NCBI RefSeq assembly: GCF_000787395.1
Contig: NZ_JRAA01000002.1
Span: forward strand, 310,001 to 374,000
Source: Solemya velum gill symbiont
GTDB taxonomy: Bacteria; Pseudomonadota; Gammaproteobacteria; Chromatiales; Chromatiaceae
Direction of reading: 5' to 3'
Length of the DNA stretch: 64,000 bases
Part shown: in pieces, positions 41,363 to 43,812 of the stretch
Layout of the letters: the number at the start of each line of letters is the position of its first letter
How positions within the stretch are numbered: the stretch's first letter is position 1
Program-made: the position numbers and the translations under genes
Notes under the pieces: generated by a model
The model's input: only the letters and a program-made list of their open reading frames with translations
Databases searched by the model: none
Told to the model about the DNA's origin: nothing

Positions 41363-42340
<978 letters not shown>

Positions 42341-42359
42341 TGGATAACGGGGTGTAACA

Positions 42360-43073
42360 ATACTCATCTCACTCGAAGGAACTGACCCGGCAACGCCATT
42401 TCCGGACCCGGAAATGGCGGAAAAAGAGCCAGATGGTCTTCTCGCAGCAGGTGGTGACCTTGAACCCATCCGGCTCGTCAATGCATACAGCTCGGGGATA
42501 TTCCCATGGTACAGCGAAGGTCAGCCGATCCTGTGGTGGTCACCTGACCCGCGTACCCTGCTCTTCCCCGGTAAGCTGCACATATCGAGAAGCCTGGCAA
42601 AACGTTTGCGGCAGGGGCGTTTTGAAATCTCTTTCGATCTCGACTTCAACCGCGTGGTCTCTGCCTGCGCAACTGTTTCACGCAAGCAGCAGGATGGCAC
42701 CTGGATCGTCGACAAAATGCAGGCTGCCTACAAACGCATGCATATCCTGGGATTCGCCCACTCGGTCGAGGTGTGGCAGGATAAGGAACTTGTAGGCGGA
42801 CTCTACGGCATGTCGATCGGCAAGGCCTTCTATGGCGAGTCGATGTTCAGCCTTGTGCCGGATGCATCCAAGGTTGCCCTTGTCATGCTGACAAAACGCC
42901 TGCTTGCATGGGGATTTCATTTCATCGACTGCCAGGTTGTCACCAGCCACTTGGTGTCACTGGGAGCCGAGACAGTTACACGCCAGGATTTTCTGCAACT
43001 CAATCAGCTGGCGGTAGAATCAGAAGAGAAATTTGAATGGCGACAGGAGGCGGTAACAACAAATGATGCATGA
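42360..43073 (+). CDS. aat: Leucyl/phenylalanyl-tRNA-protein transferase, probable AUA start
   Basis: N-end-rule enzyme that adds Leu or Phe from tRNA to proteins with basic N-termini. The first ATG (42414) would drop the conserved N-terminal region, but the same frame upstream reads [18 protein letters not shown], which aligns with family N-termini. The family's initiator Met aligns with the ATA codon at 42360. A GGGGTG lies five bases upstream (42349-42354), an ideal distance. No ATG, GTG or TTG occurs between the in-frame stop (TAA at 42345) and 42414. The core has GLLAAGGDL (about 28-36), [12 protein letters not shown] and [11 protein letters not shown]. Overlaps bpt by a few bases. Confidence 0.85.
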
Positions 43074-43812
43074 TGAGACCAGTGTCAGCGTTACCCTCTA
43101 TGTTGGCGTTCCGCACCAGTGCAGCTATCTCGAAAACGAGACCACGACACTGCACATCATCGACCCCCAGTTCAGCATGAATTCTGCCTTTTACGGCGGC
43201 TTGCTGGCACAGGGTTTCAGGCGCAGCGGCGATATGGTCTATCGGCCCGGATGTGAAAAATGCCATGCCTGTATACCGGCACGCATTCCAGCCACCTATT
43301 ACAAAGCCAACAGATCACAAAAACGCACCTGTAAAGTAAACCGGGATATCGACATTCGCTACCGCTCGCAGGCTGGTTTCAGTGATGTCCATTTTGAACT
43401 CTACAATCGCTACCTGGAATCACGCCACCAGGAAGGCGGTATGGCTGAGCACACCCAGGAACAGATGGAACAGTTCCTCGGTTGCAGCTGGGGTGAAACC
43501 GAACTGATCGAAGGCTGGCTGGATGATCAACTGGTGATGGTTGCTGTTACTGACAGAACGCCCAATGCTCTCTCTGCACTCTACACCTTTTTCGATCCGC
43601 AACTGCACAAGCGCAGCCTTGGGACATTTGGCATCCTGTGCCAGCTCGAACGCTGCACGCAGCTGGGACTGCCATGGCTCTATCTTGGCTACTGGATAGA
43701 GAATTGCCGCAAGATGTCCTACAAGCAGGCATTTAAACCGATTGAACTGTTACAAGAAGGCGAATGGAGTTTCCTTGATGACACCCGGCTGTTTCAAGAC
43801 CTCGGGTTTTGA
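43063..43812 (+). CDS. bpt: Arginyl-/leucyl-tRNA-protein transferase (Bpt/ATE-like)
   Basis: A 249-residue transferase of the bacterial Bpt family, which adds Leu to acidic N-termini. Motifs PHQCSYLE (cysteine about 20), [18 protein letters not shown] (about 59-76, with CxxC), ARIPA and [10 protein letters not shown] are typical. Start uses ATG at 43063 or 43066. Together with aat it forms the N-degron module; the usual infA neighbour is missing here. Confidence 0.93.

Follow-up and report, generated by a model that had tools for sequence, protein, structure and literature searches.

The aat locus and its start region

The window analysed here is a 64,000-nucleotide stretch of the 2.70-Mb assembly (10 contigs) of the Solemya velum gill symbiont. 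The part of interest holds aat, the gene for leucyl/phenylalanyl-tRNA-protein transferase (Aat), flanked by two further genes. The following features, all on the forward strand, were delineated:

41378-42340, forward strand: trxB (thioredoxin reductase), the upstream neighbour of aat, an open reading frame recognised from sequence alone
42340-42357, forward strand: mini-ORF MDNGV* in another frame, its ATG overlapping the trxB stop codon (TAATG)
42349-42354, forward strand: Shine-Dalgarno-like GGGGTG, 5 nt before ATA
42360-42362, forward strand: ATA, the proposed initiation codon of aat, aligned without gaps to the ATG, TTG or GTG starts of relatives and also ATA in the sister genome
42360-43073, forward strand: aat, 237 codons plus TGA, counted from ATA
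42363-42413, forward strand: 17 codons that would be lost, together with the start codon, if translation began at ATG 42414
42394-42419, forward strand: perfect 12-bp inverted repeat with a 2-nt loop, containing ATG 42414
42414-42416, forward strand: ATG, the first conventional in-frame start, probably unused, inside the hairpin stem and with a weak Shine-Dalgarno (SD) sequence
43063-43812, forward strand: bpt/ate-type transferase gene, an open reading frame overlapping the 3' end of aat, recognised by position and sequence

The product of aat matched PF03588 with 249.9 bits (cut-off 22.7, E 1.2e-74) and TIGR00667 with 201.5 bits (cut-off 143.55), and the search of the genome gave one aat match. 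The AlphaFold2 model of the protein (pLDDT 93.9) was used in a fold search against the PDB, in which the top nine chains were all Aat (TM 0.87-0.91, rmsd 1.2-1.5), one of them, 2cxa, being titled E. coli; the best matches of the PDB sequence search were Aat structures as well. By Pfam, NCBIfam, PDB sequence search and fold the product is Aat, with its enzyme activity predicted.

The original prediction had proposed that aat probably starts at an AUA codon, and had stated that no conventional start precedes ATG 42414 in the open frame. The codon-by-codon listing bore this out. From the in-frame TAA 42345 to ATA 42360 the aat frame reads TAA, CGG, GGT, GTA, ACA, ATA; it continues with CTC ATC TCA CTC GAA GGA ACT GAC CCG GCA ACG and reaches ATG 42414 through CCA TTT CCG GAC CCG GAA, so that ATG, GTG and TTG are all absent between TAA 42345 and ATG 42414. 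Other near-cognate codons do occur nearby. One is ATC 42366, which is in frame; another, confined to the sister genome, is a second ATA two codons upstream, since GTA ACA ATA of the window (from 42354) reads ATA ACA ATA there and the sister has two in-frame ATA codons.

The GGGGTG five bases before ATA is present at 42349-42354 as had been claimed, with the spacer TAACA. Its calculated duplex with a consensus 16S tail, which may differ from the genome's own, has -8.9 kcal/mol in the window; 4% of 3,000 random 20-mers of the window pair as strongly. The counterpart in the sister genome (-6.4 kcal/mol) is unremarkable, as 19% of the random 20-mers reach -6. The SD sequence is thus good in the window and moderate in the sister, which is supportive, short of decisive. 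The predicted structures are unfavourable in part: the probability that the AUA is unpaired was 0.43 for the window and 0.11 for the sister, whose SD had a value of 0.13. A candidate small hairpin, GGGGUGU-AACA-AUACUC, would hide both the SD and the AUA; the G42354-to-A change in the sister keeps the pair, this being one substitution only.

Position of the start codon in the relatives

The collections searched contained one other genome of the genus, that of the Solemya elarraichensis gill symbiont (here the sister), whose Aat is 96% identical. Both genomes (2/2) have ATA at the start codon of aat within nearly identical flanking DNA. In the nearest relative outside the genus (locus L111), the gene begins ATG-CTC-TTT-TCA-CTC-GAC-GGT against ATA-CTC-ATC-TCA-CTC-GAA-GGA in the window. 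Its N-terminus, M-LFSLDGTDPDTPFPPPSMAETDP, aligns gap-free with the window residues and puts Met on ATA 42360, in agreement with the original prediction, which had placed the initiator Met of the family on this codon. The aligned start position lies 24 codons before the GLLAxGGDL motif, and in the nearest relatives the same codon is ATG (L111, g2), TTG (11 scored g29 loci) or GTG (L009, L027). Conventional start codons at this place in more distant relatives are what would be expected if codon 42360 is the start site.

Start codons were tallied mechanically, by taking the conventional codon nearest to the expected place between -34 and -18 codons from the motif. Among the 177 of 184 aat loci that were scored, 152 had ATG, 13 TTG, 7 GTG and 5 none; the remaining seven were missed by the motif search (L032, L054, L171, L180, L185, L189, L194). 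These numbers include duplicates: L002 and L031 represent one 7,220-base contig, and further overlaps of the two collections were kept in. The five loci lacking a conventional start were that of the window (L001), the sister (L002 and L031) and two cut by contig ends (L025 and L046); hence, none of the untruncated loci outside the genus among the 177 scored was devoid of a conventional start. Within the same family, 99 loci were scored (82 ATG, 11 TTG, 3 GTG, 3 none), drawn from 104 loci representing the best-ranked 104 of 196 matching family genomes.

The TTG starts are themselves a case of another weak start. In 11 loci, all of genus g29 (L013, L113, L116, L118, L119, L123, L126, L165, L184, L198 and L212), the TTG of aat lies directly at an upstream stop codon, apparently the end of trxB, or only a few bases away from it.

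The start might instead lie at a neighbouring near-cognate codon, either AUC 42366 or codon 42354 (GTA in the window, ATA in the sister). Both share the open stretch with ATA 42360, and AUC 42366 is two codons away from it; infC of the same genome also aligns with an AUC start. Nevertheless, the gapless family alignment places the start at 42360, the SD would stand 11 nt from AUC 42366 and overlaps codon 42354, and the latter codon differs between the two genomes. We regard such a start as improbable. An AUA start at 42360 is the simplest reading of the sequence, AUC 42366 and codon 42354 being minor alternatives.

The segment upstream of ATG 42414 and the hairpin over this codon

A start at ATG 42414 would give a 219-residue Aat devoid of its first 18 residues. 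As the first conventional in-frame start, this is the codon that gene finders restricted to ATG, GTG and TTG would pick. The segment ahead of it was scored against a profile built from 52 distinct N-termini of the Aat family, each of which opens with a conventional start codon that precedes the GLLAxGGDL motif by exactly 24 codons. On this profile the 17-residue stretch that separates ATA from ATG 42414 obtained 37.1 bits, within the scores of the members of the profile set (28.6 to 52.2 bits). The next-best segment among 74,980 stop-free segments in the six frames of the window reached 7.7 bits, and all 100,000 permutations of the 17 residues stayed below 37.1 bits. In 47 aligned Aat proteins F14 and P15 are invariant and L5 nearly so, and in the AlphaFold2 model the mean pLDDT was 93 for residues 1-10 and 96 for residues 11-20. 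Between the window and the sister, codons 2-18 differ by a single synonymous change, and the amino acids are identical. Over the whole gene 55 of 238 codons differ, 46 of them silently and 9 with a change of amino acid, and the first 23 codons contain just one of these 55 (hypergeometric P 0.014; the sole such window of 215). The profile score, the invariant residues, the pLDDT values and the lack of amino-acid changes together argue that the segment upstream of ATG 42414 is coding. A start at ATG 42414 would therefore remove invariant residues, the Phe-Pro pair among them, and with them a confidently folded segment; the conserved N-terminus would be the cost, as the original prediction had argued.

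The ATG itself appears poorly accessible. A perfect inverted repeat with arms at 42394-42405 and 42408-42419 encloses it; this hairpin is new here and was absent from the original prediction. The predicted fold has -19.4 kcal/mol over 29 nt (z -5.3 versus 200 shuffles), and the 12-bp stem pairs ATG 42414 fully in both genomes, with an unpaired probability of 0.00 in the window and in the sister. The single difference in the sister hairpin falls into the loop (42407). The SD before ATG 42414 is poor as well (-3.7 kcal/mol in the window, -4.0 in the sister). Altogether, the fit of the upstream segment to the family, its constancy between the two genomes and the buried ATG make a start at 42414 very improbable.

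With the peptide fixed, 0.06% of 20,000 random synonymous recodings folded as well as the hairpin; a fold as good was absent from all 2,126 codon-aligned 30-nt stretches taken from six genes of the window. These tests, like the count over the first 23 codons, were selected once the hairpin had been noticed, and the repeats listed for the window include two more perfect ones of at least 12 nt with separate arms, so that selection for the hairpin is no more than plausible. By eye, the repeat is absent from L111. According to the structure predictions, the likely effect of the hairpin would be to block initiation at the internal AUG.

A sequencing error in the window or a decaying pseudogene would also account for the ATA, and loss of a start codon is commonly the first step in the decay of symbiont genes. 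The original prediction had pointed to an ATG in a close relative of otherwise equal sequence as a sign of such an error. The sister, assembled separately, carries the identical ATA in nearly identical surrounding DNA, which makes an error in the window very unlikely. The preponderance of silent over amino-acid-changing codons (46 versus 9) and 237 codons free of stops indicate that aat is under selection, against the pseudogene. We regard both readings as very improbable.

Finally, Aat could be begun at ATG 42340 and shifted by -1 into the aat frame before UAA 42355: this ATG overlaps trxB (TAATG), has a good SD (-9.6 kcal/mol) and opens a mini-ORF kept in the sister. The candidate was rejected, since a slippery heptamer is absent, the tRNAs reading GGG and GTG would be unable to re-pair one base back, as judged from the sequence, and the proteins of the nearest relatives begin at the ATA position with no extension toward 42340; its probability is negligible.

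Taken together, the reading frame, the family alignment and the ATA in the sister genome support the predicted AUA start, and comparison of sequences leads us to conclude, with a probability of about 0.87, that translation of aat starts at AUA 42360 in this lineage of Solemya gill symbionts.

Proposed initiation at AUA and its possible meaning

We searched the genome for tRNAs that could serve this codon. Among the 38 tRNA genes found, none has a UAU anticodon, so the idea of a special UAU-anticodon initiator tRNA was rejected. Three of the 38 have a CAU anticodon, and one of these (L155) carries the initiator motif in its anticodon stem; we take it to be the initiator tRNA. Because a UAU anticodon is missing from the tRNA genes found, the initiator tRNA must read AUA. 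We propose that the 30S subunit would be positioned by GGGGUG five bases before AUA 42360, and that the ordinary initiator tRNA (anticodon CAU) would read AUA with a mismatch at the third position. The product would be the full-length, 237-residue Aat, presumably with an N-terminal Met, and the hairpin may prevent the formation of a truncated one.

The ends of trxB and of the mini-ORF lie close to the proposed start. The stop codon of MDNGV* ends 2 nt before ATA 42360, and the sister keeps the mini-ORF with one synonymous change and the overlap TGATG with trxB. Ribosomes finishing trxB or the mini-ORF could re-start at the AUA, as the sequence arrangement suggests; this arrangement is known from two genomes, and simple closeness of the genes could equally account for it. 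Coupling of trxB and aat via an inverted repeat (42324-42342 with 42358-42376, 79% complementary) was considered separately. In the sister the repeat has one codon missing and an A in place of a paired G (rows L003 and L004 of the alignment are disregarded), and masking of the trxB end changed the unpaired probability of the SD in the window from 0.74 to 0.11, so that the SD was not exposed. Poor conservation of the repeat and the failure of masking to expose the SD leave this coupling unsupported.

Near-cognate starts seem to be at home in these bacteria, to judge from infC, the gene best known for such starts. In the window genome (L129, 1474-1500, contig C1 at about 290,150) and in the sister (locus L128) the infC start aligns by eye with relatives at ATC. 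Out of 30 infC loci 26 were readable, and ATC stood at the aligned place in 22, both of this genus included; in 10 of the 22 the codons shown contained no conventional start. An in-frame GTG five codons upstream of the infC ATC overlaps the infC SD. Judged from the sequence, this GTG is probably not the start, and a start called there is probably wrong. Both genomes of the genus carry a gene for IF3. In one relative (G021, locus L237) the infC codon at this place is ATA, against ATC in most of the other relatives that were readable.

An AUA start is very rare in bacteria and normally gives low protein output. AUA starts are already known in bacteria, and aat would add a case to this small class. 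The available part of one report describes AUA initiation codons for S. aureus infC, ccpN and citZ, with reporters for ccpN and citZ yielding, in poor medium, about 10% of the AUG level, and ccpN up to 30% in rich medium (PMC13009471). The likeness to aat extends beyond the codon: infC and ccpN have an extended SD near the start and ccpN is conserved among relatives. The S. aureus genes differ in being other genes of another phylum, and in that their starts were mapped by initiation profiling, whereas comparison alone places that of aat; in contrast to aat, the available part of the report also makes no mention of a start-burying hairpin (PMC13009471). As far as the portions available to us state, one survey placed AUA in its group of the seven strongest start codons (PMC12350097), and an efficiency of up to 1% was found for ATA by Hecht et al. 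2017 as cited by PMC12864459. According to a part of the latter source, a spontaneous ATG-to-ATA change in rpoS of E. coli O104:H4 still allowed RpoS to be made, at most 5-fold less (PMC12864459). This is a gammaproteobacterial AUA that replaces AUG and gives protein, as aat would; it differs in being a recent laboratory mutation, whereas the aat start is common to two species.

Excerpts of a further source describe near-cognate starts of infC, ATT in Escherichia coli and ATC in Streptomyces, and a GTC start of Streptomyces sigR with demonstrated control by IF3 (PMC5472188). The infC genes resemble aat in having a near-cognate start, under a discrimination by IF3 that would be expected for aat too, and infC of the window genome itself aligns with ATC. 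They differ in that their product is IF3, which closes a feedback loop; no loop of this kind is implied for aat, whose product is not an initiation factor. As presented in the same excerpts, sigR is a parallel in that a non-canonical start, together with IF3, holds down the expression of a gene for a protein other than an initiation factor, as is proposed for aat; it differs from aat in codon, gene and function, and in that control by IF3 is demonstrated for sigR and predicted for aat (PMC5472188). In the open-licence literature, where the slash in the name of the enzyme makes it unsearchable, we saw no prior non-canonical aat start, a weak negative result.

In vitro, IF3 discriminates against weak pairing at the third position, according to the accessible part of PMC10158994. 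From this and from the AUA reporter levels in other bacteria, low and IF3-sensitive synthesis of Aat is to be expected by analogy, in line with the original prediction: the output would be roughly 1-30% of that from AUG, and IF3 may repress initiation of aat. A more far-reaching reading would be that the Leu/Phe N-degron branch is deliberately throttled and tied to the IF3 level. The AUA start and the start-proximal SD would then serve this throttling, the coding-region hairpin would have been selected to bury the in-frame AUG, the mini-ORF would link aat to translation of trxB, and aat and infC (AUC) would follow initiation fidelity up and down in concert. We consider this reading unlikely, and offer it as a tentative suggestion.

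Few genes are known with an AUA start, and such genes are truncated when annotation admits ATG, GTG and TTG only. The AUA in two symbiont species, together with ATG, TTG or GTG in related genera, forms a natural series for asking why the start of a gene is weakened and whether this is sensed by IF3. The hairpin over the internal AUG suggests the idea that mRNA structure may be selected against a truncated product where the true start is weak. Aat determines which proteins enter the Leu/N-degron route, so how much of it is made could be important for a host-associated bacterium.
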